This document shows positions 22,967-50,701 of a stretch of DNA of 64,000 nt, piece by piece (within the stretch, counting starts at the first letter, position 1; each line of letters starts with the position of its first letter). Source of the stretch: Aphrocallistes beatrix (lineage: Eukaryota > Porifera > Hexactinellida > Sceptrulophora > Aphrocallistidae). The notes under the pieces are model-generated. The model searched no databases. It was not told where the DNA came from and worked only from the letters and a program-made list of their open reading frames with translations. The stretch covers positions 3,883,723 to 3,947,722 of the forward strand of contig OY725496.1 in assembly GCA_963281255.1 (NCBI GenBank). Reading direction: 5' to 3'. Made by a program: the position numbers and the translations under genes.

Positions 22967-23290
22967 TGTTTTGGGGGGGGGGGGGGCGCGGGGGGGGCGC
23001 TGCCCCCCACTTTTTTACATTGTATCATTATCACTATGTTGACTAAAACCTAAATATACTCGCAAACGCTTGTGATGAATTGGCGCGAAGCACAAAGTGG
23101 TAATCAGGTTACAGGAAGGAAATTCAAATCCCGTATGAGATTTGATAAGAATTGATGTACAATGATATTTGACCACCTTAAGTTTAAAAATTTTTCTGGG
23201 GGGTTACCCCCCAGACCCCCCATTACCTGCGCTCGCTCCGCTCGCTTTTGGCCCCCCCCTGAGTCTAAACCCTGTATCCGCCCCTGCCAT
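22967..23290. repeat. Dispersed C/G-rich repeat with CGCTCGC motif
   Basis: Long G and C runs (ggggggg..., ccccccagacccccc) are followed by TTACCTGCGCTCGCTCCGC. The motif CCCAGACCCCCC-TTACC-CGCTCGC recurs at 26425-26470. This shows a dispersed repeat; no coding potential. Confidence 0.5.
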
Positions 23291-23613
23291 CAGGGGATTA
23301 AAGTTTCACGAAAAAACATATAACTTTTTTACGGGAAGGAAGCGCCCCCCACTTGAGCTGGATATAACTACTACTATACAAGCTTTCTAATTATGTGAGT
23401 TTATTCTCATGACGTCATTGTGTATCTATCCAACGGTAAAGTACATTTTGAAGAGAACAATTCTTCAATTTGTATTGCATAGAACAACGAATAATTAATA
23501 AGAACAGCAGTGCATCTTCAAGAGAGATTCAGTTGATGGAATAATTCAAACTACATCTGTACATCCCAGCTCCTCTACAACAACCACGGGGTCTCGTTGA
23601 AAATTTTATAGAA

Positions 23614-24567
23614 TTAATTGTTCGATGAGAGATCCCATTTCGATTTCTTTTTCTTTTCACCTCCATTCACTTCCTCCAGCTGTGTGGTCCGCTTGGGTGC
23701 ACCAGCAGACACAAACTCTAGCTTGGCCCGCCCCGCTGCTTCTGTCTGCAAGCGGGCCTTCTGCTTCCTCTCGTACGCCTCTTTCTGCAGCAGTCTCAAA
23801 CTCAGGTACCCGCCCGAGTTCTTCCAGCGGACGGGGTCGAACAGCTGTGAGGGGTAGTTGGTGCCGTACTCGTTTATAGTGCAGAACTCAACCATTTTCT
23901 CGTAGATGCTAGGGTTCCTGAAGTCCTTGCCCTGCTCCGCCGATTTGTTGAAAGGGCCTTGCTGGAGACTCTTCTCCAACGCATCCGCCACTTTATCCTG
24001 GAGGTTAGGTGAGCAGTGTCCAGGGGGCTCGGGTGGGAACATGACGGAGTGGAGCACGCCCTTCCTCGGCGCCTCTAGGAGAGAGTTAGAGGTGTGAGTG
24101 GTGTCGGTGAGGGCCTGAGATGAGCGGTCCCCCCCAGATGTGTACGAATGTCCAGTGTGGTTGTTTAGCAGCGCGGGGGAGTGGAGATGACGTGGCTTAG
24201 AATAGTCATCTGTGGCGTCGCTGTCTGACCCGGAACCTGACGCCTCTTGGTCTTGGTAGGCCACCAAGCTCTTCCCGTGTCTGGCAGGGGAGTGGAGGAC
24301 GTCAGGCGGATTCACATCCGGAGCTAGGTCCACTTGAGAGAGGTGTAAGGTGTCAGGTGGCTCTGTAGAGTTTGAGGTGCGGTTGGGTTTTGTGGCGCTC
24401 AGTCCGATCAAGTTGACACCTGCAGGGGCTGGCTCTGAGTAAGAGGTGTCGGCGTTAATGTGGGCGTTTAAGAGAGGAGGGCTGAGGGTAGAATCACCGA
24501 GAGGTGTGAGGTCCTCATCGGTCATGTCAGAGTCCCCCCCGTACCCTACCAATTTCAACTGGGTCAT
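23614..24567 (-). CDS. SAP30BP: SAP30BP/HCNGP-family protein (intronless)
   Basis: A 317-codon frame. The C-terminal half is the HCNGP domain: PPEPPGHCSPNLQDKVADAL, then FRNPSIYEKMVEFCTINEYG, then TNYPSQLFDP. These correspond closely to vertebrate SAP30BP (FRNPSIYEKLIQFC, GTNYPKDMFDP). The C terminus KKKKSKWD matches the family's KRKSKWD. The N-terminal half is acidic and low in complexity, as in the human protein. SAP30BP is nuclear, was first described as a transcriptional co-regulator, and has since been linked to splicing of short introns. The human gene has many exons and this one has none. The start is the first ATG in frame (MTQLKLVGYGG). Confidence 0.9.
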   Translation of the reverse strand: MTQLKLVGYGGDSDMTDEDLTPLGDSTLSPPLLNAHINADTSYSEPAPAGVNLIGLSATKPNRTSNSTEPPDTLHLSQVDLAPDVNPPDVLHSPARHGKSLVAYQDQEASGSGSDSDATDDYSKPRHLHSPALLNNHTGHSYTSGGDRSSQALTDTTHTSNSLLEAPRKGVLHSVMFPPEPPGHCSPNLQDKVADALEKSLQQGPFNKSAEQGKDFRNPSIYEKMVEFCTINEYGTNYPSQLFDPVRWKNSGGYLSLRLLQKEAYERKQKARLQTEAAGRAKLEFVSAGAPKRTTQLEEVNGGEKKKKSKWDLSSNN

Positions 24568-24946
24568 CTAGACGTGCTTCCTAACAGAATTGCTGAAATT
24601 ACAAATAAATAGATAAATACGAACTCACTACCAATCATGGGCATAGCAGCCGGGAGGGCAACAGTGCGAATATCGTACATAATTGTGTTTTAATTAATTT
24701 TTCGGTGCATAGCTACATTCCTATTCGGACTAACGACTAAATGAAAATCCCGACTAATGTATGCACCCCGATGATCAAATCATAAGAGTTGTATGGCATT
24801 ATTATTAAATCCCATGCAGTCTATCTAATTCAACAATTGCAATAAACGAATCTCGGACTTGACTTGGTTGCAATTGCTATAATGATAATAATAACTGTCA
24901 GCTCATCCACGCAAAATGTCAGTCCAAAGGCAATTATTTTTGTTAC

Positions 24947-25846
24947 GGTTGTTACTAAAATACGGGACGGGACAGCGGCGGGATATTCCGGGTTTTGACT
25001 AAAATACGGGACAAGTTTGAATCTGCCCCAAAGGACTCGTGTTTCACTGGATATTATATACGTATCTAGGAAGTAGAACACAATTTATGACTAGTACCTT
25101 GCTAATACATCCAACTTAATAGGTTTATACTGGTGTCCATATATATATATTCTGACTAGAATCTCAATAATACTAGTGTAATCTCATTTAGTTCTCTAAA
25201 TACTAGTGTAATCTCTTTAGTTCTCTAAATACTAGTGTAATCTCATTTAGTTCTCTAAATACTAGTGTAATCTCTTTAGTTCTCTAAATACTAGTGTAAT
25301 CTCATTTAGTTCTCTAAATACTAGTGTAATATCATTTAGTTCTCTAAATACTAGTGTAATCTCATTTAGTTCTCTAAATACTAGTGTAATATCTTTAGTT
25401 CTCTAAATACTAGTGTAATATCATTTAGTTCTCTAAATACTAGTGTAATATCATTTAGTTCTCTAAATACTAGTGTAATCTCATTTAGTTCTCTAAATAC
25501 TAGTGTAATATCTTTAGTTCTCTAAATACTAGTGTAATATCATTTAGTTCTCTAAATACTAGTGTAATATCATTTAGTTCTCTAAATACTAGTGTAATAT
25601 CATTTAGTTCTCTATGAATAGTTTCAAGTCTAAACCCATTCATATTGGTTGTGTAATTGTATGAATGAAAAAGGATATTTAAATATTAAAATCAATCTCA
25701 CAACTGCAATCTCACACTTCCATTTGGTAATGAGTGTAAAATGCAATGCGGGACCATTGGGGCAGTTTAAAACGTGTCGCGTATTTTAGTCAAAACCCGG
25801 AATATCCCGCCGCTGTCCCGTCCCGTCCCGGATTTTAGTAACAACC
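24947..25846. mobile_element. Non-autonomous hAT-like element with perfect 8-bp target duplication
   Basis: Terminal inverted repeats of about 65 bp start GGTTGTTACTAAAATACGGG at the left. They reappear, reversed, as CCGGATTTTAGTAACAACC at the right. The 8 bases on each side are identical (TTTGTTAC at 24939-24946 and 25847-25854). An 8-bp duplication is typical of hAT elements. No transposase frame is present. The interior is occupied mostly by a minisatellite. Confidence 0.8.
25166..25612. repeat. Minisatellite, 28-30 bp unit, about 15 copies
   Basis: The unit is TCTAAATACTAGTGTAAT followed by (C/A)TC(AT)TTTAGTTC. Units differ by one C/A substitution (ctc or atc) and by a 2-bp presence or absence, giving alternating lengths of about 30 and 28 bp. 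It lies inside the hAT-like element at 24947-25846. Confidence 0.85.
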
Positions 25847-26169
25847 TTTGTTACAACTAGTAGTCCCCTTTCGATCGACGTACTTCGACAATTATGATCT
25901 GCGTACCTTAGGATCATGATCTCCATACTTTTTACATGGTACTTGTCTCTGCTTCCGAATGCCTCCTTGACGGTTCGACTAACTCGCTCAACGTATTCCT
26001 ACAGATCCAGTTGTCCAGCAATTTGAGGTAATAAAATGGTGAGAATGAAACCTAAACTGGCATCTGATGTCTGATTCACAATATTTCCACGTTGGAATGC
26101 CAATTACACGACAACCCCGGGGAGAAGAGGGAAGGGTGAGAACTGATAACAGTAGCATAGGCGCCAAAT

Positions 26170-26480
26170 GTGGGTACCTGGGGGGGGGGCGGCCCCCTCA
26201 GGTCTGGACCCTGGGGGGGGCACCCCAGGGTTGGAGCCTGTGGTGCTGGGCAATGTATGGCAGGACTCCACACAAACTTATAGGTTACAGCTAAACCCCA
26301 AAATTATGTTAATTGAGTCTAAATATATATCCCAATCACATTTTTCTTCCACTATAGTCCGAGATTTACTTTTCCCTACGTAACAACAATAGCTGTATAT
26401 CGATATTTGAGCATCTAAGATTTTTAAACCCCAGACCCCCCCTTACCTTCGCTCGCTCTTGCCCCCCCCCCAGATTTTAT
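26170..26480. repeat. Dispersed C/G-rich repeat, second copy
   Basis: G runs near 26180-26225 and the sequence CCCCAGACCCCCCCTTACCT then CGCTCGCTC near 26430-26460 repeat the pattern seen at 22967-23290. No coding potential. Confidence 0.45.
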
Positions 26481-27317
26481 TATATTTTCCAAAACTTGGC
26501 ACCTATGATCAGAGGTATAAATCTTCTCAAACGTATATTGTACAAACACTCATACCTATATCACACAGGAATCTGTTGGATGATTTGTACTAATATATCT
26601 AGTTTTGGAGCGATGGCCTATCTCAAACTTTGGTTGCTGCGATGGTTATTGTTGTTATGGTGATTATTAGCTGAGACTTTTTCGATTGATTGAATTTCTA
26701 TTTTTACCGCAAGCCATTCTATGTGTTGTAAAGTCTAGGATGGATAGGTTATGATAGCCCATTTCTTCCCAGAAAACAACAAATGCAGGCTAAAACAATA
26801 CAGATAGAAAATAGAAGCAATCACTGGAGAGGAATAAATGAATCGAAAAGAGAGGATATAAAAGCCAACATCGAATCATTGAATAAATTCGTTTACTTAA
26901 CTTTGCTATATTTCATACTTGCATCTTAGATTAATTAAACAATTTTTTTTCTTTTTTATTCGTTATAAAACTGAGGCATACTAGCCTATTTAGGCTTTCA
27001 GTAGATAAATCTACTTTGAACAATCGAGCGTCTTTTCTTTCAATAATTACTTGTCTTCCCCGATATTAACGGAGGGTTTTCGAGGAGGAGCAAACATACA
27101 CTGTATTCTTTTTTTAGTAAATAATACATAACAGATCTGGGGTTAGTTACCTTTTTTAAAATTCCGTGATTATTCAAAAATGACAGAATTAACAGTCTGG
27201 GGTAGGACTCGTAGGAGTTTACCCACTGAATTGCATTCTAAATTTTTCTCAAAGTAGCTATTTATAAATTCCTGCCTAGACGATACAGTCGAGAAGTAGA
27301 GTCGTTTCAAAAGCACA

Positions 27318-30300
27318 ATGAAATTAAGATTCACTACACTTGATGTCATCGTCATTATGCGAGAGCTACAGAGACTGTGAGTTTGTACAATTTTACATGT
27401 GCATGATTTGAAGACACTTTGTGTCAGCATATTGCAAAATTCGATATTCGGAATCTACACTAGGGCCGTATGGAGCAAATATTTGTGCGGCGAAGTGGGT
27501 GTTAAAAAGTGAGCATAGCAAAGGATCAATGTTAGAAAAAAGATGTGTTTAGAAACGCAAGGGTGTTTAAAAACGTACAAGCGCGCTTCGCTAGCTTGCG
27601 GTGAGCGGCTGTCGGGCACTTTGTGTTCGCCAGAGGCGTCCTTTGGACGCCTAGGCTCACATCGATTAATTATAAGATAGATAACATCGCTAAATATGTC
27701 TGTTTTAATTTGAGCGTAATTTGAGTATATTTTGCGCATAATTTGAACATATTTCGAGCATAATTTGAGCATATTTTGAGTATTATTTGAGCATATTTCG
27801 AGCAGGGGTTGAGGATATTAATTTGCAACTATGTGATTGATGTAACGATTTGTGCAATATATTCGTCAACTCAGTTCTGTTGTCGCTAATAATCTGAACT
27901 GGTGCTCCTTGTCTACAATAGATAAAAATATATCTTGCGCCACTTCTGATGCTTTGCAGACTTCCCAGACAAAGCATGATATATTTAATAAATTTAGGGA
28001 GCCAAGTTTTGTAAAAACAAATCTAGATTAATAAGATTGAGGCTATTTTAAGAATGGGACAATATTGAGACAAGATTGAGGAAAGTTTAAATTAATTTTA
28101 ATTGATCTGTGTAGCATAGTCGGCGATCGTTCCAAAGTTGGTGGGTTGATCCGCCCACTAAAGACATGCTTCATGATTCAGGGCCGGCGCCACCGGGGGT
28201 GTCCTGGGTGTCCAGACACCCACTGCGTCTTGTTTTATCATATTGTACAATATTATATCCCTCCATAAATGGACACCCACTTTCAGGGAAATCCCTCTTA
28301 GGACACCCACTGCCGATAAAACATGGCGCTGCCCATGTGATTCATGATACAATGTACAGCCAGTTATGTTTATATCAAACCGTTTCAAATTACTCATATT
28401 AGATTCATTATAAAAACTATATTTAGGCTCCCAGGGTGTAAAGTCAACAACGTTTATGACATTGACAACAAGACTTACATTCTCAAGCTAAACAGGTTGG
28501 TTGATACATTAACTAGCGTTACTATGTTATTATGTACATGTACAAAATTTTGTTATCCCATTGAATTGTACCCAGAGGCGTAGTCAACTGAATTTTAGGG
28601 TGCGGCACAAAATTATTGGTGGCCTTAGGCCTTAGCCGCATGTGGCGCACCCTCGCTACGCCTCTGTTTGTACCAGGAGAGAAATTAAGTGGAGCTCTGT
28701 CGTCTCAATTCAGGTTGTATGAAAACTGCTCTGAAAGAAGTTCGGTCTATTAATACTATTGGATTCAAATGAATAATCAAATAGGACTATTATATTTTGG
28801 ATAAATAAGATTAGACATGCCTTCAGTTCGATTAAGTCGAATGATGCTTTTACTCAGCACGATTGTTGGTGATAATTTGCTCTTTTATTTGCTAAGGTAT
28901 ATGAGTGTAGGGGGGTGTCGAACGAACCATTTTATCTTGGAAACAGGACAGTTAATTCATTCTCTGGCAGATGTGGAGTTGTTCTGTTTTGTGAACTTTC
29001 GTTTAAAGAAAATTTTTGTTCTTTCCGTTTTCTAATCACTCATATGGCTACATTCTTTCAACGTTCTGTTTCCTCAAAACATTCAACTCTTGATGCCAGA
29101 GAGACATTAATAAGAACTATGTCTACTTAGTTTTTTCTCGAATTGTGTCATATTAAGTGATTCATTACAAATTTAATAGAACTAAACTAGTCTTATATAA
29201 TTATAATCGAAAGATTTGTTACAATTTATCATCTAAATCGTAAAACCGACTATCCGCCGTATGGCCCTTCCCGATGGCTTTGATTTTGGCACGTTGTGCT
29301 TTTACCTCTTCCGGCCAGTACTTCCAATACCTGGAACAAGGAACTTGTCCAGGAAGCGAGCAGATGCACTTAAGCTGTCCGAACTCTGGAAATCCGAAAT
29401 TATAAGGATTCATCACATATTTGGGACGTTCGGGGTTGACATTTTCCGGCTTTTTATCTGCTTCTATTTGTTCAGGACTCTTCTCTCCGATTTTTATCAC
29501 CACCTCACAAATTTCTTTCCGAGACATCCACTGTAGATTCACCTGAATCCGTTCCCCGCCCGTTAGATAGAAATCGATACTGGCATGCTTCTGACTCTTG
29601 AACGTGTTGAACTGGACGTCAGGGTTCACATACACCAGCTGTGGCAGGTTGTAGAAGATGAACTCTTTCATTCCCACGTTTGAAGGATGGCCATGCATAA
29701 AATAGACAGCCACGTTCTCGATTCCGGGCTTCAGTATTTTGCCCCGTTTCAAGTAGTCCACAGTACGCCCCAGCGGAAACTTCCCTTTAGGACGCACCGC
29801 CCCAAATATCTTGGTTCCAAACTGAGACTTCATTGCACTAGCCATAACTTGCTATTATTGCTATTATGTATAGTGGAGCAATACACATAGTTAAAATGTA
29901 CAAGAAGAAAAGGTGTGAATTTGTTTTGCATAGATGTAATTTTGGCAGGTGTGATATATACTTTCAAGATATTTATGCATACACATCTTCCAACTGCAAT
30001 AGTACCGGTATTACAGTATATTGGTACATGTGTGTAGTACATATGAGACTTGGGCATTGCAGACAGTTTTCCTCTGCGCCTCACACCTGACACGAGTCAC
30101 AAGCATTCTACATTGCATTTTAATTGACTAACACACAGCAGCTAACTAGTGGGCACTCTTTGAGCATCAGGTGGTTGGAAGTAGACACTCTCGTCTGGCT
30201 TAGCTTCGAAGAACGTGTAGGAGAGAGTGATGGTGCGCATCGCTAAGAGGCCGGGGTCCTGGGCGATGTCAGGGTCGATGTAGAAGAAGACCGGGAGTTC

Positions 30301-33300
30301 TACGTTCTCTCCCGGATTGAGAATCTGCTCCTCAAAGCAGAAGCACTGGACCTTGATGAAGTACTGGCCTGCTTCGAACGGCAGGACGTTGTACGAAGAA
30401 ATTCCTGTGATGGGACGCGCGGTGTTGTTACGCGCCGAGTAGAACGCCAGCGCGGCCTCTCCCGGCACCAGTTCAATCTCGCTCTGTTGTGGCTTGAATT
30501 CCCATTGCATTGAGGAGTCCCTGCTCGCACTGAACCGTATTTTGAGTTTCCTCTCCCGCACTGGCTCCATGCGCTCTAGCTTGACTGGGTCCTTGTGTCT
30601 GAGGGTGGTGCCCCCGTACCCCGTGGCCTGACAGAAGAGCCGGTACATCGGGACAGCTGCGTACGAAATGCCGAACGTGAGGAGAGCGATAGATGCAAAG
30701 ATGCGGCTTGTGTTGCGAATCCCTGACCTCCGTGCATCGAAAGCGTTGGAGTAGTGCCTATGCAAGAGGGAGGAGGGGAGAGGGTAGCCAGCCGCACGGA
30801 CACGGGAGCACAGTACATGTTTCATAGCTTCGTGTCCAACTATTCACTACACACACTTGAATACCTGTTTAAATGTGAATGAGATAGAACGAAAGTCTAA
30901 TCTTAACATCACGAATGGGTACAGAACTAGTTTTTGTTCACAAGCCTACTCTTCTTCATCTTCTTCTTGAGAGCAGCTAGGTCCACTGCTTGCTGCTCCG
31001 GCTGCTGGTCTCTACCTCTGGGGCTAGACTCTGTCGGGGGCTCATACATCTTTTGTCTCTCTTCCTCTCTCTTAGTCTTCACTTCCTTCTGCTTCTTCAC
31101 CTTCGCTTCACGCCGTATCCCCTCCTTCTCCCTCTCTCCCAGGAAGTACTCCCCACTGGCCAGCGCCTTGTCCACCTTACTCTCTGGGGGTGCGGGGGGG
31201 AACGGGGTATATGTTCCCTTTTCTCTCTGCACCGTCTTCTTCCTCTTCACATTGACCTTCTTGAACTTGGGCAGGAATCGGTCCCAGCTCTGATTCCGCA
31301 TCTCGGGGTTCTTCATCAGTTCCCGCTTCACCATCAGCGTCTTGATGTTGTAGACGGGATGGATGTTGTTCATACAGTCCGTCACCACCTTCCTCACACT
31401 CTTCAGCCCGGCGTATCCTCCTATCACGCACACGGTGTTCCCCTGCACCAGGATGTAGCACCCGGTCAGGAGCTCTAGGGCCTTCAGAGTCGCCCCCTGG
31501 GGGCCTAAGAGCCGCTGTCTCCGGCGTACGAACCTGTCCTTGTTCCTCACCAGCCCGCCTATCTTGATGACGTCACTCACTGTCTCATCATCGAGCGTCC
31601 GCGTGGCCTGCTGGATGGGCACTCCTCTGGCCAGCAGCTTCACCACATCGCGAGACCTGATGATGATGAAGGGGTCCCATGTCTTGCTGCTGGTCTTCAC
31701 GGTGACACTTCCCTCGATCAGGTCGAGCTCTGCCTCCACCCCGTGAGACTTGAGCTCCTGAACCACCAGGGGCCACACCTCCCTCAGGTAGGCCTCTCTG
31801 TAGCGAGGGAACAGGATGGAGAAGCTGCTCTCCTCGAGGAAGGGAGCGGGGTTATCCTCGGGTTTAAATGTCTCGATCTTCCAGGCGTCTACCCCCTCCC
31901 CCTCTTCAGGACCTTCTGACTGCCTTCTCTTCTTCTGTCTCTGCTTGTAATCTCCTCGACTCCCTGAGTCTGCTCGTCTCTTGTTGTGAGGGGTGGCACT
32001 CATCTATAGCAGAGCCTGATTAATAGAACGATTTACTCTATTGCACTCATAACTTCTTAAAACCTAAACAATCTGTCCCGTCAGTCAATACTGAAGGACA
32101 GAATGGAACTTATGTGTTGTCTCATCTCTTTCTAAGACAGAATATTTAATAAAAGTAGCCGTGAGATATTTCGAATAACTCGATATTAACTACAATTCAT
32201 GTCAGAATCATTATCAATCCTCCACACTCTGTTTATCCCCCGCACCCTCCACCCGAGAGGGACGGGGCTCTTCTAACAGCTGGGTAGACACCTCCCAGAG
32301 AGCCGCCGCCTGCTGCCTAGTCTGAGCTGCGTGGGAGGGCCTGGCGGGCTTGCAGTTGAAGTAGTAGAGCCCGCTCTCCTCGGCGGGGAGGGGGCTGGCA
32401 GCGCAGTACACGATGGAAGCGGCGCCCTGCCTCACGGACTTGGTGAAGCAGGAAGCGGCCGTGTACAGCATCCGGTAGAGGAGCCAGTTCCTGGAGAGGT
32501 TGGTGGGTACCATCACGCCCGGGTGCACCGCGTACGTGTGGATCCCCGCCTCGGCGTAGTGGCGGTGAATCTCCAGCGCGAGGTAGAGGCAGCAGAGCTT
32601 GGAGTTCCCGTAGGCGGTGATGGCGAAGTAGTCCCGCGGTCTGGTTTTGGAGAGCGGCGAATCCAAGTCCAGGCTCCCGTGGTCGAGGTTGGTGTAGCGG
32701 TGTGCTTCTGAGGATACGGACACGACACGGGAAGGAGAGGAGAGGAGCAGCTTCTCCTTCAGGAGAGTGAAGAGGTGGAAGTGTGCGAGGAAGTTGACTG
32801 AGAAGTGCATCTCGCACTCATAGCTACTCAGTCTCCAGTCCAGTCCCAGCACCCCGGCATTCAGCACCAGGATGTGTAGCGGAAGCTGTAGGGAAATGAA
32901 CTCCTCTGCGAAATGTCTCACACTCTCTTTCTGAGAGAGGTCTAGCTGCAGTATTGTGAGTTTAGCGTCAGGAGTGGTCTTGCGGATCTTCTCGATTTTC
33001 CCGCGTCCAACGCGCACATCGCGACATCCCATCACCACATGACACCCTTGAGAAGCGAGACAGCGAGCAGTCTCGTAGCCTAGTCCGGAAGTGGCCCCTG
33101 TCACCACTGCCACCTTCTCAGTCAGATCCACCCCCTCCACAACCTCGGCGGCTGTTGTCCTCTCCGTGAAAGAGTTCTGAACGAAGGTCCCGCGGGCCTT
33201 GGCTACCCTCAGCACGTACCGCTTCCGAGCTGGATCCGTCAGTAGTCTAGGGTCCGTGTACGCCGCTCTCTGCGCAAGGTACTCCACGTAGACGGAGTTC

Positions 33301-36300
33301 CCATCCTGGTCCTGCTGTCTGCCCCACCCGTAGGGCAAGAAGGGCGGGACTGTCTTCAGTTTTCCGGTGGCCGGGTGCTCCCACTGGGTACACTTCTCTT
33401 TGTGGTTCACGTAGTACACTTTGTTGCTGGGTGTTATGCGGTCCTCCCAGCCCTGAGGCAGAGGCACAGCCATCTCATCGTCCTCGCTTGAAGTATCGTC
33501 ATAGAATGAGATTTTGTCCATAGGACCTGTCTAATGATAGTCAACACTTCACATGGTTAGCATGGGGACTAGTTAAATTCAGAAACGAATGGTCGGATTC
33601 ATTAATTAACAGCTTCAACTCGGGATACAGACTTAACCTAACAAGACTTTTAGTGATCTAAAGTAGGTACTTTGCCTACAGGGGGAGGGGGGGGTCACTA
33701 TTTTTCGCCACACATTCTGACATAAATGAAAAACGCTTCCTTTAACGTCGGAATGTGGAAATTGAGCCGAGAAAGAATTAATTACTGTTTTTTTCAAATA
33801 TAACAAATAATTCGCAGAAGGTTACCATCCTTGAATACATTCTGACCTCCTTTATATCACAAAGTTGATAAAATAAGCATCCGTATGTAATTGTATGGAA
33901 TAAAGAAGAAAAATGTTAATCTACACCCTTAATAATAACAACAACAGATCAATGGTTAAAAGCTAGTTTCTATTACATTTTAAGATTAGTTTAATTTATC
34001 TAGTTTCGAAAATGATAAATTCGAAATCTACACCCCGAAAAACCCAAAGTCAACCGTTGGACCCTTTTCTGTCCCTTTTTCATCCATTTATGTCCCTTTT
34101 TCGTCCCATTTCAACGATTGACCTGGAGTGATTTGGATTCCGAATATCGTATTTTCTATACTGTATAACAAATTAGGACATACCTAATTAACCATTCCGG
34201 GAAATCTGAGCACCTAATTTACGGAATTTGACGGAACGGTTCCTGAATTTAAAATGCCTATTTTACGGAATATTCCATTCCGGATATTATAAATGCCTAA
34301 TATCCGGAATGAAATATTCCGTAAAATAGGCATTTTACCTAATTTATGGAGTGTCCATAAATTATGCATTTATTATATCCAGAATGGAATATTCTGTAAA
34401 ATAGGCATTTTAAATTCCGTTCCGTCAAGTTCCATAAATTAGACGCTCAGATTTCCCGGAATGGTTCCGTTCCATTCCGTAAATTAGGTATGTCCAAAAC
34501 ATGGATTGAGCTAGTACTTCCACGGATTCCAAATTTGTTATCGACTATGCTAAGTGTCTATGCAGACCTCCGTCGATGCATATCAACATATTTCCTAAAA
34601 AAGTAAATAGACACTTTATTAGTTTTCTAATTATTTGGATCAATGCATTATCTCTCCCGTTTCTTCTTCTCGACGAATCCCCTGGCGAGATTGGGTATCA
34701 ATGTGATCTCTCAAACTCGGCCACAAACTTTCCCAATTCTTCACTATTCCTCAACGCAGCCCACGCCCAACCCTGAAGACATAGATGTGAATGAGAGAAT
34801 CAAGCATATGAGTTTGTTGCGAGTGGATAAACAGGAACCCAAAGCACTTACCACGGCGGAAAAAGTGGTGCGGACAGGGAAGGATGTCAGCTATTCCGGA
34901 GTCATCCTCATAGCATTCGCAGTAACAGGAGCACTCGTCTGGGCGATTTTCAGTGAATTCTTTTCAGGAAACTCACTGAACTCTCTCTTCACTCGAACAC
35001 TCAAACTCGTGAGGAATGATGAGAAGGCACGAAAGGTGCTGGGGGAACCGATCCGAGGGTTCGGGGAACATACCGGTTGGAATCGGAGGCGGGGTATCGA
35101 CCATGCGTTCTACAAAGTGGGAGACAGTGATCATCTACGCATGGCGTTCAATGCTAAGGGCCAGAAGCGGTTGGGGCGGGTGAATGTGGACATGAAGAAG
35201 GATGGGAGGGGTCGCTACCAGGTGCGGTACCTGCTGCTAGAGCTGGAGGGCAGACCGGGAGGTACACTGATTTTACAGGATAATCGGTAGTTATTTTGTA
35301 ATGCGATTCAATGAAATATTTGATGTCCGTTTTCTTTCATTACAAAGAACCTGTAGCTCACTTGAAGAATTCGATATTTCTATCTGCAGCTTAGGTAACA
35401 CAGTTCAATATCATTGGTGTCCAGACGTATTAGTCCTACGCATAGGCGTAACTTTATCCCCGCTATTCCGAATTCCGGCCATTTGTTTTAGAACGAAACC
35501 ATATTTTTAAACTCGGAATTATGGCCAATTACCTTAAACAATTAGGGAATCATTATTACACGTTTGAAAACGAAAACAATTTCTTGACAATAAAATAACA
35601 AACATTGTACAAGTAACCCCAATAAATGTAAAGCATATTACTGTCAATTATTCATAAGATATTAATGGCATCAAGCAAACTCAATGAACGGGTTCTCACA
35701 CAAAAAGTCGAACTAATTCGGGTCAATCGCATCGGAAATTGGCAGAAAAATTTAATATCGGAAGAACCCAGGTATCCTCCATACTTAAGCGAAAAACAGA
35801 GTATCAGATCTCCTCTTGAAGATAAAAAAATTATAAAACATTGGCTGTATACTCGCTTAGCATTCACTTTGCACACTCGTACTCTCGTAACGAATCTCTG
35901 CATGCGTATGAGCCATTGTAGCTTCAAGGCACTTCTTGCAGGCTCTGCAGACTACCTACATATAATTGCACTTTCTGCTGCTGGTTTCTCTTGCTATGTT
36001 TGGCCTGGAATGACGATGAATCTGTAGCATGGTTCATTCTATGAATTCTATATAGCCTTTGAATAGATGTGGTTGTCAGAATGACAAGTCAGCCTCTAGC
36101 TGATGGATATCTGATACCAGTTACCATAATAGGAAATATATTTAGATTCTATTAATCCTGTTTTCTGGAACAGGTGGTTAGTAAAAGATTCGTGAGCTAA
36201 AATATTCAATTATATACTGCATTCCTAGAACTATAAATGTATTGATAGTTGATTGAAATAATGTAGTAGTCCTTTTTGTTGCTTATTCAGTTCTGGCATG

Positions 36301-39300
36301 TGTTTGATAATACAACCTTTTCCCACCTATATATTATGTCATATAACTGTTTGTGCCAAGATTCCTATATAAAGAATACTTGTTTCTCAAACTAGGGAAT
36401 AAAATGTTTTATTTATACATACATGTAGATCACTACAAATTTAACAATGTTTACTTGCAACTAAGTAGTACTTGAAGAATGTATTGAATTCTTAGATTAA
36501 TTAACCATACAAATGGCCCTCGCAGGTTAAAATTTTCAGGTTTCTAGCTCGCATGCAATTGACCGACTACGATAGGCTTAAACTCGTGAGCTTTGTATAA
36601 ATATTCCCTTGTGTAGTTTGAACTTTTATTGATCTATCAAAATCATCTGATATATAATCACTTTATACTATTCATGTTGAGATAGTTTATTTTGATAAAA
36701 TGGCTGCGAAAGAGGTAGAATGGGATCTCGCTGTGGAAGTGTTGCATCTTGGAGCACGTAAAGTATTACGTGTCAGGAGTGATTGGTCCGTGGGCCACGT
36801 GCTGAGCACTCTCTCCTCCAAACTCCTGGAGACGAACATCTCCCACTACGGCCTCTGGTGGCCGGAGAAGAGACTGTGGTTGCGCAAGCACCAGCAGTCC
36901 CTGCATGGATACGGAGTTATGTCGGACGCTAAGATCCAACTCATCAACCTCAACCACAGGATATTCGTAGAGCTGCCCGACAAGTCGGTCTACAAGTGTG
37001 TCGTGAACTTCAGCCGGCCAGTGTTCGAGTGCGTCACTGAGCTCTGCAGGAGGTCCAGTATCCGCCGCCCCGAGGAGCTGTCCTTATTGAAGTTCCGCGA
37101 CGACGGAACCGCAAAACGTAAGAAGAAGAAGGAGAAAGGGAACGGAGACGATATCACCTACCACCCGGATGTGAACTACGGGTACCAGCCGGAAGGAGTG
37201 CAGTTCCACAAACGTAACGAGTGTCCAGACTGCTTCGCGAAAGAGTATACAAAGAATCTGAAGGATCTGTCGCATATAAATCGCTACTGGCTGGACTCCA
37301 ACCGATCTCTGTATGAGCAGGAAGTGTTCGATGACGACCACCTCTTCCTCCGGTTCAAGTACTTCGCGTTCTTTGATCTGAACCCGAAGCTGGACGACTT
37401 CAGGATCAGTCAGCTGTTCGAGCAGAGCAAGTGGTCCGTCCTCTATGAAGAAGTGGACTGTACGGAGGAAGAAGCGATTACTTTCGCAGCTCTCCAGTTC
37501 CAGGCCACGCTCGCTCTATCGCAGAAGGAACAGCAAAAGAAAGAGAACTTCGCCGCAATCGCTTCTGACATAGACCAACAGCTGATGGACCTCAAAGACA
37601 GTCTAGGGCAGACAGACACTCAGATACAGGCACCAGCTGAAGACACGTTTGGCTACCTAAAGCTGACAAAGGGCGGGTTCACCTTGCGCGGTCCCAAACG
37701 GCACTGGTTCATGTTACAGGGTGTGACCCTCTGTGAGTTCAAGTCCAGTGAGGACAATAACATTGTTGACAAGTATAACCTGAAGGGAGCCATGAGTGAG
37801 GCCGACCTGGACCCAAGCAAGAACAAGTTCGCTATCATCCTACAGCTAGAGGATGGAGTCGACCTCCGGATTCTGTGTGATAATTCTGACGACTATGTGA
37901 AGTGGATGGCTAGCTTCAAGATAGCGGGGAGGGGAGAGATCATCACTGATAGCAAGTTGGACAGGGAGAAGGCGAGTGTGAGTGCTTTCATCGCGATGCA
38001 GGCCGGTAAGAATGAGACGAACGGCGCCACGCCCGGGGACGCTAGACCCGAGTTACAGCCTCACCTCTTGTTGAGTCAGAGGTTCGTTAAGAAGTACAAG
38101 AGCAAGACTAAGGACCTATCTCGAAAGGTAGTAGAAGCACACACCTCCTTCCTCAACCTCTCTCTCATAGACGCTCAAATGCAGTATCTACGGAACTGGA
38201 TGGCACTGACCGACTTCGGTATCAGTTACTTCGTCGTGCAGTTTACTCGGCACAAGAGAGAAGCTCTCTTGGGAATAGCTTTCAATCGGTTGGTCGCTAT
38301 CGACATCAACTCCTTTGATCAGGTGAAGGTGTGGCGGTACGCAGGAATGAAGTCCTGGCGGATAAACTGGCAATCGAAGGAGATGCGTATCATTCACGAG
38401 GAGGGAGACTTCGGATTCGTTTGCCTCTCAGCTGATTTAAGGACTGTACACGAGTTCATTGGCGGGAACGTGTTCCTCTACCTGCGAGATGACCCTCATG
38501 CCCCTCTCGATCTGGAGCTCTTTCAGAAGCTAACCATGGACATGACCTCAGTGCACTGTGGGTGGGGTGAGGAAACCTTTTTTACAAGGGATTCAACTTA
38601 AGAATGTTCCCATTCATAATTCCTATTCACTTTGTATTTTATTCCAAGATGCTATGAACATTTCCATGTATCCACTCCTACCTGGCAGTCTTGCTTACAT
38701 GCCAATCTTAGTGTTTGCATTTCTTAATGTGGTTCAAATCATTTTACTGATGCTTAAACCGTTTATACTATTTAGATAATTCCAATGCATTGCTCGGTAA
38801 TTGAATGTATTAACATTACATTGGTTCCACTATATTTATGTATGAATGAGTATAACAGTTATATGATTGTTCAAGTTAAGCTTTTGACGGGATGGCGTAA
38901 CTGGGTTGTTAAGAATAGTTATCACTAAATGCTACGAAACTTAGTTATTCATTACCGTTCTCTCACAGTTATTAGTTACGTTCATAAATTGTTAAATTAA
39001 AGGAATTAATTTTGTGATTTGAATGTACTTATCAATATACACGATGAAGGCATGTCTAACTATTTATCTATACCAACCAAGTTCTTATGCCCTAACCCCC
39101 CCCTCCCCCCCTCCCTTCCTCCTAAATAAAACATTATTATCAGCTCCCTAATAACAATGCAGGCAGTGTGTTGGGATGGACTATATAGCTGCTCTGTCAG
39201 CAATTCCCTCGCATTTCTTACATAGTATGAGTGCTTCTTAAGTTCAGGTCAAGTTATTGTCTCTTTCAAGTTGTTGCGTACAAGTTTATGTTTACATGAT

Positions 39301-42300
39301 ATGGAATCCATCAAATGATTCAATTATTTGTGGAAGCTTGACATTTCTTTAAATACACATGTCTTTCATTGTGTTCAATTTCCACTCATTTGTGAAATCG
39401 CACTATAGCATTCTATACACATTTACCCAAAACGGGAAGTCAATTAGTAAAAGTTAGAAGTATTCCCACTATAACACATTTACTAATTGATTTTGATGTG
39501 GCATTAGGCGGTTGATGGTACTTTGATTAATTAACTTCAGAAATTAATTTTCTGACACTGTCGTTAGATGTCTGATCAGATTCTAGTTTGGAAACGTTGA
39601 TATTTCAGGTTTCAGGCCTCTGAATTACACACACAAGTTCAACAACATTGCTTCGAATCACGAATGAATACTAGTATTCATATGAGAACTTTTCTAATGT
39701 TCACATCTGCATCTACCATTTCTTGCTCAAAACCTTCGCAATTACCTTATAATTGACGTTGTTCCTGAAGGAAGCGACGAATATGATCTGATCTCTCGTG
39801 ACTTTTTTGCTTATTGCAGCCATTCTTACAACTTCTATAAAATAGGTTGAAATAGTTATTGATAAATTGTGAGATAATTTAACGTCGCAAGCTCTATTCT
39901 TCTCTAAACAGTTGAACATTGGTTTGAGGCATAATTATAATAATTAATTTAGTGTACGTGTTATATATGTAGATATGTGAACTACATCACGCGTACATAC
40001 TGTAGGTAGTACAACTTCTAATCATATTATGAAGAGTAAGAGTATATTTAATTCATTTAGGAATGACTTATTAGTAATCTGCGTTTACACCATTTAGTTC
40101 CAGATGTCCACAGTAGTACCTCTTGTGTTCTGGGGCAGTGACCCCCCTTCCCACTTCGTAACCTGTGTCACCATCTGTCCTACTGGACACGAGGTAGCCA
40201 CAGGATGTCGTTCAGGATTCATTTGCCTCTGGACGCTCCACTGCCATGAGTTCCACAAGGAGTCGACTGACCACTCCTCAGGCCAAATGATCCCCCCCAT
40301 CAACACCTACCAAGCACAGGCCAAGAGCATGCTCATCGGGGCCGCGGAGGAGATCACCTCGCTCTGCTACTCTCAGGACGGAGGCATGCTCTTCTCTGCC
40401 AGTCGCAACGGAGACATCATCCGCTGGGACGCCAAGGACGGTGCTTGCACCCACCAGAATAACCTGGAGGGGGAGCACAGGGGGCTCAGATACCTCGGCC
40501 AGCCGCAGGCCCACCATCTCTTGCTGGTGTACGGGAACTACTGCAACGCGTACCTGCTCAACGCCAGGACGCTGGATCTAGCCATCGTGCTGAGGTCGGA
40601 AGAGCAGCCCAACTGGATCAGCTCCATGCTAGCCATCCCCCTCTCCCTCCACCACAAAGACACACACGTCCTGGGAATCACGGCGGAACAGCTGATCAAG
40701 ATATGGGACGTGCCCAGACTGGACCTACAGTTCCCGCAGGAGTGCGACAGCAAGGAGGAAGACAAGAGCAGACAGACCGGCTATCTCAACGTGCAACAGC
40801 TCAGACACTGGCCTAAGCTGATTGCGCAACGGCTCCTCGTGGTAGGCTTCTCCTACTTCAAGGTGTTGGGCGTGCGCGCCAAATCCCAGCTACCTGAGTT
40901 GTGCCACGTGGACTGCATAGGCCACGTGTTCTCCCTCTCAGGCGGGGACTTCGTGGATGACGAGCACATCGTAGTTTGGTCCCGCATGGGCAGTGCTCAC
41001 CTCTACTCCTTCCTGGCAACGGGGAGCGAGGAGAAGTATGAGGCGCGGTATCTCAGGTGTTTCCAGACGCAGGGGGGCGTGGATCTCCCGATGGACGCCT
41101 CCTGGGACCTCCTACACCAGGAAGGGAAGGTGTTGCTGGTACAGGGGAACGCTGGTGGCTCCCTCCTTCTCTGGGAGCTGGACTTGGAGCTGGGGGAGAG
41201 GGAAGTGGCGCCCAAGTCTCCTCCTGAGAAGACTCCTCCCCACTACGAGACCTCTCTCCGCAGCTCCTGGGACCTGCTAGACAACCAATCCAGTCTGATC
41301 TCGTACCTGAGGGAGTCTCTCCTCTCCCACACTCCCCTCACCCCCTCTCACATCCCTGATGACGTCAGCATCTTAGACTCCTCTTGGGTGGAGAAAGAGC
41401 CTGGCTTCGCTGAGAACATTCAGATCTCCAGCATCCTGCACCTGCCCGAGCTGTCCAAAGTGATGTGCGGACTCTCCAACGGCTACGTGGTCATCTTCCC
41501 GCTGGTCCGGAGTCTGGAGCAGATGGTGTTCGGCGCTTCCCAGGACTCCCCCTGTGATGACGTCATGGTGATAAAGGCGCACAGGGGGAGGGTGAGCGCT
41601 CTCCTCTACCCCTGTCAGTACTCCGAGCAGTTCAATCGGAAGTACGTGATGACAGGTGGCGCAGACGGTGCGGTCCGTGTGTGGGACATTGAGAACCGCC
41701 TGCACCTGCACTGCTTCCTGGAGCACGTGGGGGAGGTGTCGCGTCTCAAGGTGTGTCCCAAGATGACCAACACGCGCCTGAACTGCGGCATCTGCTCCGT
41801 GGGACAGGACAACTCTGTGGCCATTCTGAGTCTGTCCGAGTTCCGGGAGGTGTTGCTGTGCGGGAACCACTCCTCCGCGGTCACACACGTGCGCTGGAAG
41901 CCGGCGGAGGACTTGATGCTGGTGCGCTGCAAGGACGGGCGCGTGTACATCTGGCAGATGGACACCGGGGTGTTGGACAGGGTGATAGTGGGACACCTGG
42001 CCGAGGACATCATCGCCAGCGGGTCCTCGAGCGCTCCCTCCTACCCGCAGAGGAGAGATAGTCTCATTCCTAAGGTCAGCAAGGGCTCTCAAGGGGGCGG
42101 GAAGAGCATCGCTTCCTTCAGGGCGTACCGGTCCCAGCAAGTGGACATCACTGTCCCTACCCTACTCATCCATATGGAACCCCTGATAGAGCAGCTCTCC
42201 ATTTCAGAACAGGCCCTCCCACACTCCAACCTCTCTGAGGCCCCCTCCTCCCAATCGCTCTCTGACCTCTCCGACCTCTCCACCAGCCCCACCAGGCCCT

Positions 42301-45300
42301 CCCCCTACGAGCGGAGACAGGAAACCGTCTTCTTCACGCGCCTCCTCATCTCCTGTCTGCACAGCTGGGGCATCGACACCAACCTGGATGCCTCGTGCCA
42401 GGAGCACCTCAGAATCAGACGGCCGCTCTCATTCGGGATGTCTCCTCAGTTCGGACTCCTCTCCAAGTACTCCTGCGTGTCGGTCTACCTCCCTGGCTGG
42501 GGACTGGAGCGGGCCTCCCTCACAGCCGAAGTCTCCTCTCCGCACCAATCGTTCCCCTTGAAGTACAAGTGGTGCCTCAGCCCCGGCATCACGACGCAGC
42601 ACCTGCTGGCCCTCACCTCCCTCAGCTACTGCTGCATGAACCTGTACAGCAAAAAGCAGCCCCCCAGCAAGCCCGTGACAGACGACTCCTCCCAGAGGAA
42701 GCTGACCACCTGCAGCCAGCTCAACACCCTCACCTGCGTCTTCCTGCCAGAGATGCTCGGGCGGGACTTCACACCTCCGCACCTCTCCGTGCTGGCCCTC
42801 AAATGGCCGCACAGCAACGGACAGATCCGCGAGGCCGCGCAGGCGCTGCTGCTCGCGCAGCTGCGGAGTTTCTCTCGGTCTGATCTTCAGGAGACAGTTG
42901 CGCACTGGTACCAGCACATTCCTCCTGCCCCCTCCCACCTCCGGGGAGGTGTCAAGGGGATCACATATGGAAATAAGGACCCCATCGGGGTGAAGAGACA
43001 GGGAGATGGGAGGAGCGTTAAGATGGACTCAGTCCCCATCAACGACTACCTCAGCAACCCAGAAGCGCTGATCAAGGCCAAGGAGTACTTCACCTCTCTC
43101 ATAATCCTCTCCGTGATCGCGGCGGAGTTCACGGAGAACCCGCATGAGTTCAGACAGTCCGGGAGCGAGGCGCCGCGTCCAGACCTCCTCTCCTCCCAGG
43201 AGATGGAACACCTGGCCCTCTGCCTCCAGGGGATCCTCTGCTGCCAGCAGTCCTCTTCCTGCTCCCTGCAAGGCGCCCTGCGACGGACGGCGGCCGAGCT
43301 AATCGCAAAGGGATTCAACTTCTTCTGCAAATACCTGGATATTCCCTCCTTGCTGATGGCGCTGTTCGAGATAACAGTGACGCAGCCCGTGAACACCGGC
43401 CTGATCGAGGAACCGCTGAATGCAGACTACCAGCTGGCGCGTAACATCACGATGCGCGCACTCACGAACATATTCCAGACCCGCACGGACGAGATGATAG
43501 ACGTGCTAGCGAGGGAGGTGACCACCTACATCCAGTTCATCGGGTCCACCCACTCACTCATACCGGTGCCTGGACACGAGCACCAGGAGCCGGAGATCGC
43601 GTCCGGTATTTCTAAGTCGGGGCTACATCTGCTGCCGCGCGCGCGAAAGATCCTCCTCAAGATCCTGGAGGAGCTGCTGAAGAAGAGGCTGCCCCACATC
43701 TTCCTCAAGATCGTGGAGTTCATGGCTCTGATCATTTTCTGCATCGGATCCGAGGAACTGCGGAATCGCAGGATCGAGGAGGCCTTCCCTCCCATCGACA
43801 AGCTAGGCTGCTACGCGCACTGTGTCAAGATGGGGAACCTAGCGGTAGGGAGGAAATCCGGGTCCATAGGACTGTTCGACCTGAAGCACAATAAACTCCA
43901 GGAGTTCCCTGGACACATGTCACCTGTCACCTGCCTCACTTTCTCAGTCGACGGCAAGTACCTGAGTAGTTACAGTCAAGGCAGCTCTGAAATCAGACTC
44001 TGGCACGTATCCACCCCTCTTCCCATCCTCGGACAGATGGTCAACCCCACTGTTAAGCTGGTCAAGACAATCCTAGCCACCACACCCCAAGACAACCAAC
44101 CCATCCCCCCTAACTCAGGACACAACAACTTCAGATTATTCTGGCTCCCGAAATCGAAGGGAGCTGTCCTCCTCATGGGTGATAATCCAAAGACAGAATT
44201 AGAGTTTTCTTTCTAAAGTTTCGCTCTCGCTATAGTTCAATCACAGACATCGATACATTCATATTCTAGTATATATATATTTTGTAATCCAGCACACACA
44301 CATGTCTTGAATGTTTATTTAGCTGTGTATACTTCTACTTGATAAATATCTGAGTTTATAATACGAGTCACCAATATAATAAGTTGTATCATTACAATCA
44401 ACTCATAGCACTCCTTTCTCGAACTTTGATAGATTAGTGCTTGTACTAGTTACCATAAAGTTGGCCTAAATACATTACGTAATACCACTTTAATTTCTGT
44501 TCCATTTAATCTATCCGCAGACCTGATGAAAGATATCTACTCACGTTTGAGTCCGGATCCAGGATCCATCTCACAGAATTCGATTGGCCTAAGCACAACA
44601 CTCCGTCTGGGTTTTGCATGAAGGTGTGTATTATTTTAGTATTTCCAGATCATAATTGAAATTGCATACATTTCAGTGGAGAGTAACTACTCGATTGATA
44701 TTCCCAATCTTCTAGTTGAGGAAGCACATACGGAATGCTAGGCTGGAGTCTCTAAACCAAATGGGGAGTGACCGTGTCATAGACTTATACTTCACTACTG
44801 GCACAGACAACTACCATCTGATCGTAGAGCTGTACGATAGGGTAAGCTTAAAACAATTCTCTCAAATTGTCCTAGTAATAAAAAAGTTGGGGAACACATC
44901 CTCCGATGAAATATTTCGTTTTATATTATTAAGCTCCCACCTATGACAGGGCAATGTGATCCTAACGGACGGGAAGTACTGCATCCTCAGTCTCTTGCGT
45001 ACCAGGAAGGATGGGGACGAGACGAGATTCGCGGTGAGAGAGCTGTACCCAGTAGACAAGGTTCAACCGCCAGAAGCGCCCATCACGTTAGATAGGTAAC
45101 AGCATACCTCTATATCATGGTGCAGTGTGTAGTTTCTCTCGAAAATGGCCACAAATCAAAATGGACGTTTTGGTATGTAATCTCTCTCTTAACTCTTGTT
45201 CCTCAGAATCAAGACGTTCTTGGGTGGTCTAAAGAACGGCGATGACATCAAGAAATCATTGAACCATAATCTCAGTAAGTAACTGGAGTTTAACATTGAG

Positions 45301-48300
45301 TTTCATTCGCGTGTTGAGTAATTAACTGCCAACATTAGTACACATGGTCATATGCTTAGCTGCTGATTGGTATAGATTTCGGTGGCTATCTGATTGAGCA
45401 CTGTTTGCTGAAGAAAGGATTCAAAATGAATTGTAAATTTGGGAAAGGATTCAACCCTGAAACTGGTATGCTGACAATATGCTATTAGTGTGAAATTAGA
45501 TTGAGTGGTTTCATGCCAACCTCTGACTCTATGTTTGTAGATACTGAAATCCTATTTGAAGCTCTGCAAGAAGGAGACTCACTGATAAGAGATGCTGATA
45601 CAGCTAAAGTAGGTCCTTTCTAACTATTTGTGATATATAACTGTGTATGTACTGCATTTTCTTAATTCAGGGGTATGTGTTTAAAAAGAAGAAGACCTAT
45701 GATCCTGCTGCTGAGAAACTGCTTGGAGAGAAACAGAAAGATCTAGAAATGTAAGTATGTATTATTTTTCATCATTTCTTGGATTTTTATTCAAGTCTGA
45801 TGCAATCTAGATTGGACACTTTCCAACCCTTCCTCTTCATCCAATACGAAGATGCTCTGTTTGACACCTTTGACACCTTCAACCGGGCTGTTGACACCTT
45901 CTTCTCCAGGCTAGAGGAAAGTAAGATTAGCACCAAGACGTTTGGACAGGAGAAGGCTGCCTTCAAGAAGTTGACTAACATTCAAAAGGATCACGAGAAG
46001 AGGATTGGAGAGCTGGAGAGGTTGCAGGTGGAGATCCTAGCATTGATTCTTTGAATCCAGTTAGGTTAATGCATAGGATGGAGGATTGAGTTAGTTTATT
46101 GATAGGAAATGAATATTGAAAAGGCATCGCTAATCGAGGAGAATTTGGATATAGTCGAGAAAGCGATTGCACTTGTAAACGAGGCTCTTACAAAATCGCT
46201 GAATTGGAAAGCTATTGAGGAGATGGTGAGAGAAGCTCCCGATGACCCTGTGACCAGCAAGATCAGAAGACTGGACCTGTACAAGAATCATGTGTTCTTA
46301 TTCCTACAGTAAGCCAATAGCATTTAAAATCTTAAGTAATACGATTGTGTACATTACGTGTGTCCCTTCTAGACATCCAGAGGAGGGAGATAATGATTTG
46401 TCAGCTGACAGCACTTCAAGTGAAGAAGAGTTGGGAGCTACTCCCAATCCTAAGCCTGTGAAATCTCAGCCTCCTAAGCAGACAGGATTAGAAGTGGACA
46501 TTGACATTACCATGTCAGCTTATTCTAACATCAGGAGGTACTGTGTCATCAATACAGATATTATATTTATTCCATAAATCATTTCAAGTTAAATCCAGGT
46601 ACTACACCCACAAGAAGGCTGCCTCTACGAAGCAACAGAAAACTACCGCCGCCTCTAGCAAAGCTATCAAATCCGCTGAGAAGAAAACGAAGACAGCTCT
46701 CAAGGAGGTGCAGACTATTGCACAGATAAAGAAAGTGAGGAAAACCTACTGGTTTGAGAAGTTCTTCTGGTTCATTTCATCGGATAATTACTTAATAATT
46801 GGAGGCAGAGATCGCCAACAGAATGACATCATTGTGAAGAAACACCTGATGGCTGGAGATGTGTATGTACACGCAGATGTGCACGGCTCTTCCAGTGTTG
46901 TGGTGAAGAACCCCTCAGGTTTGCACTCTATCTAATCACCCCCGGTCCGAATGGATTCTTGACATTGGTTGCTGTATTAGGCTCTCCCATCCCGCCTCGT
47001 ACACTGCATGAGGCGGGGACATTCGTGATCTGCCACAGTGCGGCGTGGGATGAGAAACTGATTACCAGCGCTTACTGGGTTAATCCGGATCAGGTTTCGA
47101 AGACGACTCCATCAGGGCAGTACATCCAGACCGGTAGCTTTATGATCAGAGGCGAGTAAAGAATATTTTCTTATTTGATGGTACAATGATATACTACTTG
47201 TAATATTACATAGTTACGGTATGAATCTGTCTCTACAGGCAAGAAGAATTATCTCCCTCACTCCTACCTTGTATTCGGGATCGGGATACTCTTCAAGGTA
47301 TTGCAGCGATAATTAGAATTACACGAGCATTTTGGACCCTATCTGCTATTATGAATTGATTATTTGCAATGTAGGTCGATGATTCTTGTGTTGATAATCA
47401 TCTCCACGAGAGACAGCCTAAACTGGGAGAGATTGCAGACATTGTTCCAGAGACGCCAACTGTTAGTTAATTCATGTGATCGCTATTATTGAACTTTCAT
47501 TGAGATCTAAATATTTAAATTTATTATTCCATTCGATAGGATGAGAAGGATTTCCCGTTAGATTTGTTTGAAGATCGCTTGTTCAGCTCAGATGAAGATG
47601 AAAAGATTGATAATGCTGAACCTGCTGAGCCAGTAAAGGATGAAGTGATCGATGAATATGACTTTCCTGATACGATGATTTCAATTCCGACAGCAATTAA
47701 CAGCACTAAAGTTAAAACCAGAAGCGTCCACTTTGAGGTAACCATAGCCTACTATGGGAAAACCTTAATACATTTGCTTTACTATTAGGTTTCTGTATCT
47801 TATACAGAGTGAAGCTTTTACTGTGTAATAATTTGTTTAGAATACGAAATCTATTCCAATAAAACCGACGAGAAAAGAAGGTCCCGATAAGTCAATTGAT
47901 ACTCCCGCGAATGAGAACGATCAAAGCCAAGAAATATTAACCAAAGGACAACCTCAGATGACTAGAGCACAACGGGTAATTAAGTGATTAACTTTTATGC
48001 GAATGTATTCATACATTATTAAAATCAAAAGTTGTTTGTGTGTTTGTTTATTTGTTTTTTTGCAAACATCTGGAACAATATTTTTCCTTGGGCTGAATGA
48101 GTTGCGGTTACCTCGTATCCGCTTTTAAGTGGATACGTCCAACTCTCTTAACGAATAATTATGCTAGTTCTATAAAATAAATTATTTCCCACAAATATAT
48201 TAAATAACGAATCTGTAAAATTCAAATTTGTATCAAATTCATGTTTTTCGATCGGTTGTCCACCAACATTTTAGAGGTTAATATGTTGTTTTCCTATCCC

Positions 48301-50376: not shown

Positions 50377-50701
50377 ATGATTAGATTTATAGAATATTCA
50401 CTAATTTTGTTCAGACTAAATTGAATTCCGTTTTTTGTTAGATATTTGCTTTATTCCACTGCTCCACTCTTTTAATACTAAATCTATCAATCAACCTCTA
50501 GCTAAACGCAAGACTTACACAGGTCCGACTAGTCAGCACGTAAGCGGATACGTTCGATAAAAAAAATTCTTAAAACGTGCTGCCATAATCAACAAACAAC
50601 CTTTTCGAGTTTTTGAACCATTGAACAATTTGTTTGCCATTTGGATATACAACTTTAATTTAACATTTTGCTTTTTTGCTGCTGTAGGTGTAATATTTTT
50701 G

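Follow-up and report, generated by a model that had tools for sequence, protein, structure and literature searches.

In the glass sponge Aphrocallistes beatrix, the conserved gene NEMF appears to carry seven other complete genes inside a single one of its introns. The locus lies within a stretch of DNA of 64 kilobases (kb), referred to here as the window, at 3.88-3.95 Mb of contig C10 (4.98 Mb) in an assembly of 100.5 Mb and 28 contigs. We read NEMF as one cis-spliced gene whose 16-kb second intron would house seven ordinary single-exon genes, and we put the probability of this reading at about 0.88. The whole gene model spans positions 27318-50376 of the plus strand and consists of 25 exons and 24 introns, encoding a protein of 1039 amino acids (aa) that is uninterrupted to the stop codon. 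Its parts are as follows.

27318..27376, plus strand: NEMF exon 1, with the start codon; found at a single genomic place in the exon search
28427..28495, plus strand: NEMF exon 2, ending AAACAG|GTTGGT
28496..44520, plus strand: NEMF intron 2, the host intron, 16,025 base pairs (bp)
44521..50376, plus strand: NEMF exons 3 to 25, with the final TAG at 50374-50376

A preliminary description of this DNA had ended exon 2 at 28495 and begun exon 3 at 44521, and these borders hold to the base, with GT and AG at the intron ends (...CTAAACAG|GTTGGT at the 3' edge of exon 2 and CCGCAG|ACCTGATG at the 5' edge of exon 3). How sound are the splice sites of so long an intron? Scored against the sites of NEMF itself, each left out in turn, the donor of intron 2 ranks 4 (tied) of 24 and the acceptor 17 of 24. 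The other 23 introns measure 60-1050 bp, against 16,025 bp for intron 2. GT-AG borders are found in 23 of the 24 introns; intron 14 (47152-47238) apparently uses a GC-AG pair, and the join yields the conserved IRGKKN. Most of intron 22 (613 bp) consists of a 12-bp tandem repeat, GTTATAACATGT, in 40.8 copies (49483-49971), so that, together with the long intron 2, there are two odd introns within NEMF.

Do the two exons upstream of intron 2 really belong to NEMF? The junction 28495^44521 falls in phase 2, splitting the codon AG|A, and with exons 1 and 2 in place the NEMF N terminus is restored. Residues 1-409 of the NEMF chain in PDB entry 3j92, which we take to be the human protein, align with residues 1-410 of the sponge protein (E 2.8e-104), and the alignment is gapless at residues 42-43, where the junction lies; entry 9gy4 scores similarly. 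The first 410 residues align likewise, again gapless at the junction, to the NEMF proteins of Rhopilema, Trichoplax, and squirrel. Even exons 1 and 2 alone, a mere 43 aa, score 20-23 standard deviations over shuffled sequence against three animal NEMF proteins. The earlier claims that the protein is contiguous across AG|A in the NEMF N-terminal region, and that the first two exons restore its start, are thus borne out, the alignment beginning at NEMF residue 1. When the genome was searched with exons 1-3, three places were returned, and these are the exons themselves; a search with the NEMF family profile (NFACT-N) gave one match, the present locus. By gapless homology and by the single locus found, the host exons on either side of the intron are parts of one gene.

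Could NEMF instead begin near 44.5 kb, downstream of the seven genes? A separate full-length start there is excluded on sequence grounds, as had been claimed, because an in-frame TAA at 44507 begins 14 bp upstream of exon 3 and no ATG lies between. A shorter NEMF, initiating for instance at the ATG of position 44618, with exons 1-2 left as relics, we regard as highly improbable. In its favor, the annotated NEMF of the glass sponge Oopsacas minuta (P0121) starts at the corresponding methionine: it begins MKLRKHIRN, equivalent to the A. beatrix protein from the last two codons of exon 3 onward. This start is a gene prediction, however, and falls just where A. beatrix exon 3 ends. The simplest reason would be that the gene caller missed 5' exons lying beyond other genes. 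Against the relic reading, exons 1-2 are intact and strongly conserved (the z of 20-23 given above), and residues 1-76 can be matched in the three distant animal NEMFs aligned as well as in PDB 3j92.

What, then, does the intron hold? The seven full single-exon frames originally described are all there, running complete from ATG to stop and occupying 10,359 of the 16,025 bases (65%). Every one of the seven (7/7) has its coding frame wholly between the two host coding exons, within 28496-44520. Four antisense genes are grouped on the left and three sense genes on the right.

29219..29845, minus strand: nested gene 1, MRPS25 (mS25), 208 aa; PDB match, Pfam sub-threshold
30142..30825, minus strand: nested gene 2, COX11, 227 aa; Pfam and NCBIfam
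30927..32003, minus strand: nested gene 3, KRR1, 358 aa; Pfam
32214..33521, minus strand: nested gene 4, WWOX (WW and short-chain dehydrogenase), 435 aa; Pfam
34643..35290, plus strand: nested gene 5, TIMM21, 215 aa; Pfam (TIM21) alone
36700..38601, plus strand: nested gene 6, kindlin/fermitin, 633 aa; Pfam and PDB
40104..44216, plus strand: nested gene 7, a WD40 protein called WDR7, 1370 aa; WD40 regions

Of the names first proposed, COX11, KRR1, WWOX, TIM21, and kindlin stand by Pfam, and MRPS25 by PDB. MRPS25 reached 25.2 bits in Pfam against a cut-off of 26.6, and mitoribosomal mS25 chains in PDB were matched at 6.6e-25. TIMM21 had no match in PDB at E 0.001. For the 1370-aa product of the seventh gene, which we take to be WDR7, domain searches reveal WD40 regions only, so that the name itself goes beyond what they returned. 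Could the nest have been built from retrocopies? For kindlin and KRR1, the two of the seven genes that were searched for, the genome contains no second full-length copy: kindlin has four other matches, all weak (25.6-27.8 bits), and KRR1 a single weak one (23.6 bits). Given the lack of a further full-length copy in these searches, the nested kindlin and KRR1 look like the functional genes and not like retrocopies whose intron-bearing parents lie elsewhere. An extra frame of 120 aa within intron 2 (35665-36027) has no Pfam match. An Rfam scan of the window returned nothing at gathering score, and the sole transfer RNA call in the window (26171-26251) is outside intron 2. Of the 7 nested genes, 3 (MRPS25, COX11, and TIMM21) serve mitochondrial biogenesis.

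One inherent challenge of such an arrangement is that the host transcript must pass through complete genes without being cut short. We infer that transcription of NEMF would start at a promoter upstream of 27318 and pass through the nested genes, and that the splice 28495^44521 would then remove 28496-44520 as one intron, all seven nested genes included. The nested genes would be expressed from separate promoters, at their own start sites inside intron 2, and TIMM21, kindlin, and the gene named WDR7, which lie in the sense direction, would use their own polyadenylation (poly(A)) sites. Sense AATAAA or ATTAAA signals are found after TIMM21 (at 35589, 35621, and 36398) and after kindlin (at 38996 and 39125). 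Downstream of the seventh gene, in the 304 bp before exon 3, there is no sense AATAAA or ATTAAA, and only weaker variants occur, e.g., GATAAA. The preliminary description saw in the poly(A) signals of the sense genes a problem for the host, but an experimental answer to it already exists in Drosophila. According to the available part of one study, which counts 1651 nested genes in 865 host genes, with 727 lying in the direction of the host, intronic poly(A) signals went unused in two host/nested pairs as well as in reporters, and were used again once the 5' splice site had been removed (PMC3890989). In the same manner, the NEMF transcript may ignore the nested poly(A) sites by virtue of the 5' splice site upstream in the same transcript (U1/splicing-dependent silencing). 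Transcripts of the nested genes, lacking such a donor, would be cleaved normally.

An alternative way to express NEMF across the nest would be as a split gene, in which trans-splicing joins a short transcript carrying exons 1-2 to a long one that begins upstream of exon 3. Spliced-leader trans-splicing is reported for the glass sponge Aphrocallistes vastus, in 4% of long reads (PMC10282587, in the part available), so a trans-splicing machinery exists, and the sense poly(A) hexamers in intron 2 could terminate the first transcript. Yet the exons are arranged in cis, in order, and on one strand, with an ordinary GT and AG at intron 2, so a second step is unneeded. In addition, the seventh gene and exon 3 are 304 bp apart, and this interval would need to accommodate both the 3' end of that gene and a new promoter. 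We therefore consider a split NEMF very unlikely.

Could the nest be an artefact of assembly, with a 16-kb block of genes misplaced between NEMF exons 2 and 3? The preliminary description had named a join between 28.5 and 44.5 kb as a possible refutation, and there is no sign of one: the 64-kb window contains zero N, and the genome search found no other copy of exons 1-3 as a candidate true neighbor. Relatives speak to the same question. The closest named species for the kindlin, NEMF, and COX11 proteins, among the matches listed, is O. minuta, with identities of 79%, 64%, and 77%, respectively; these matches point to a glass sponge and away from a ctenophore, an origin that genome size and nesting might have suggested. 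In that species, the contig given for NEMF (P0121), for kindlin (P0004), and for COX11 (P0243) measures 1,926,057 bases in every case, and we took equal contig size to mean the same scaffold. This length is about 3% of the O. minuta genome, which is given as 61.46 Mb in the available part of PMC10282587. The placement of the three genes on contigs of the same size speaks against an artefact of the A. beatrix assembly, an explanation we find extremely improbable. An ENA entry, probably a glass sponge to judge by identities of 78-82%, carries kindlin (P0003) on a contig of 654,782 bases and COX11 (P0244) on two contigs, the longest of 654,782 bases. The gene order in relatives, proposed earlier as a check, is thus answered in part: NEMF is linked with kindlin and COX11 at scaffold level in O. 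minuta.

Several points weigh against nesting in one intron. (i) The O. minuta linkage is at scaffold level and concerns two of the seven nested genes (kindlin and COX11), giving neither distances nor nesting. (ii) The sole transcript-derived NEMF resembling that of a glass sponge among the 120 matches listed (P0122, EukProt, 858 aa) is truncated at the 5' end and does not contain the junction, being shorter on that side than the annotated O. minuta NEMF. (iii) Sense poly(A) hexamers in the noncoding parts of intron 2 are not clearly depleted, with 7 seen versus 11.8 expected, a shortfall too weak to show selection; on the antisense strand, the corresponding numbers are 16 and 16.3. (iv) In humans, nested genes, parallel ones included, can interfere with the host through exonization and cryptic polyadenylation, as described in the available part of PMC3192792. 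Nesting in one intron is nevertheless the best reading and agrees with what the sequence shows: only one copy of the exons was found, the splice sites are sound, exon 3 has no start of its own, the window has no N, and NEMF is linked at scaffold level with two of the seven genes in O. minuta.

The four antisense genes merit a closer look, for they are tightly packed. The gaps between WWOX and KRR1, KRR1 and COX11, and COX11 and MRPS25 are 210, 101, and 296 bp, i.e., closely spaced genes in one direction, as in an operon. For comparison, we measured the spacing of open reading frames (ORFs) in 264 kb, made up of 200 kb to the left plus the 64-kb window. ORFs ran from ATG to stop and had at least 200 aa; smaller ORFs overlapping larger ones by at least 30% were dropped, and multi-exon genes were excluded. 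Among the 61 neighboring pairs, the median gap is 1685 bp, and 4 gaps are below 350 bp, the antisense block accounting for 3 of these. Redrawing which 4 of the 61 gaps are short gave a P value of 0.006 for three consecutive ones, in a test made post hoc. The gap between KRR1 and COX11 has no AATAAA or ATTAAA on either strand.

The tight spacing, together with the finding that NEMF, COX11, and kindlin are linked at scaffold level in O. minuta, allows a more elaborate reading, in which the antisense genes would be an operon within an intron read in the opposite direction, with a promoter in the 33.5-34.6 kb gap. Its precursor, WWOX-KRR1-COX11-MRPS25, would be cut into single messages, with leader trans-splicing accounting for part of this. 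As a whole, the nest would then form a housekeeping module, kept together across glass sponges and concerned with the mitoribosome, complex IV assembly, protein import, and ribosome assembly and rescue. We consider this combination unlikely. Are there acceptors for a leader in front of the internal genes? The best acceptor within 80 nucleotides before the ATG stands at background percentile 0.70 for KRR1, 0.33 for COX11, and 0.23 for MRPS25, and at 0.93 for WWOX, the first gene; such sites before the internal antisense genes are unremarkable, and a leader-acceptor signal was not found there. The sense nested genes have percentiles of 0.20 (TIMM21), 0.45 (kindlin), and 0.98 (the seventh gene). 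Across 62 ORFs, upstream acceptor scores are shifted upward (median percentile 0.71, Kolmogorov-Smirnov P = 0.0005), which base composition near start codons could explain, and 10 of the 62 reach or exceed the 0.9 percentile (binomial P = 0.09). The antisense genes could form an operon; the acceptor test does not favor it. Spliced-leader operons of nematodes and others have tight head-to-tail spacing, like the four antisense genes. Unlike them, the antisense block has no strong acceptor before its internal genes and is known from sequence alone.

The antisense and sense arrays diverge from a gap of 1.1 kb. Two further features of intron 2 are the following.

34173..34498 (approximate), no strand assigned: palindromic (fold-back) element of nested palindromes (inverted repeats I2, I3, I4, I6, and I10), in the divergent gap
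28573..28666, no strand assigned: dispersed repeat, 78 bases inside intron 2; at least 41 genomic matches, including itself

Beyond the intron, the neighborhood offers some observations of its own. A 30-bp tandem repeat (25169-25614) lies on the 5' side of NEMF exon 1, flanked by the two arms of an inverted repeat of 85 bp (24962-25046 and 25742-25826). On the 3' side of NEMF and in the same direction are AAR2 and then a cytochrome P450 gene, with gaps of 325 and 440 bp (50377-52191). A stop-to-stop frame of 1263 codons at 55105-58896 has CARD and PDZ domains and is presumably CARD-MAGUK-like. UTP15, DKC1, and KRR1 do ribosomal RNA work; UTP15 (by Pfam), a putative DKC1-like gene (with a PUA domain), and KRR1 are within 15 kb of one another in the region 17686-35290, which may be chance.

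How does the NEMF nest compare with known systems? It had been called unusual, and this is partly so: seven unrelated conserved genes make for a crowded intron, while glass sponges have a published nesting habit. In the available part of the account of A. vastus, a genome described as dense has 19,578 genes, 2432 nested genes (12.4%), and 12,409 single-exon transcripts, with wide microsynteny with O. minuta (PMC10282587). A. vastus is thus a close parallel as a glass sponge with abundant nesting and many single-exon genes; it differs in that the same part of that account gives no nested counts per intron and does not mention NEMF (PMC10282587). A table in the same source lists only 83 nested genes in the O. 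minuta annotation (PMC10282587), and the main text of the O. minuta genome paper does not contain the terms "nested" or "trans-splic" (PMC10280926).

Outside the sponges, the ctenophore Hormiphora californensis is reported, in the available part of its genome paper, to have 1654 host genes that together contain 2357 nested genes, many of which run in the direction of the host (PMC8527503). The legend of an example figure there gives four genes within one host, a situation akin to ours (PMC8527503). That amounts to about 1.4 nested genes per host, however, and two of the four genes in the figure are doubly nested, whereas the seven in A. beatrix stand side by side with no double nesting seen. 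In Drosophila, an intron of dunce contains Sgs4 and four "new glue" (ng) genes, the ng genes being intronless, according to the available part of PMC10835880. It resembles the NEMF intron in that several small genes share one intron of a gene unrelated to them. Of the ng genes, however, three resemble Sgs3 and so make up one family, in contrast to the seven unrelated conserved genes in NEMF (PMC10835880). The Drosophila pairs xl6/nop5 and ytr/eIF6 are alike in that the host transcript ignores a nested poly(A) signal (PMC3890989, in the part available). They have one nested gene per host and were tested experimentally, whereas NEMF has three parallel genes in a row, read from sequence. Among the papers available for searching, none joined "nested genes" with "NEMF," and the available parts of the literature on nested genes gave no published maximum of nested genes per intron.

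Overall, gene nesting itself is already described for glass sponges, and the NEMF nest is a crowded new example of it, with seven unrelated conserved genes in one intron placing it at the crowded end of the nesting examples found. For annotation, it serves as a warning that automatic methods can leave a host gene of this kind without its 5' end; the NEMF entry of O. minuta seems to be a case in point. For the biology of these sponges, the crowded intron is a natural setting in which to ask how a transcript may run uncut through several complete genes, three of which share its strand. A conserved host with three parallel nested genes would be a good subject for the study of splicing-dependent poly(A) silencing beyond flies and vertebrates.

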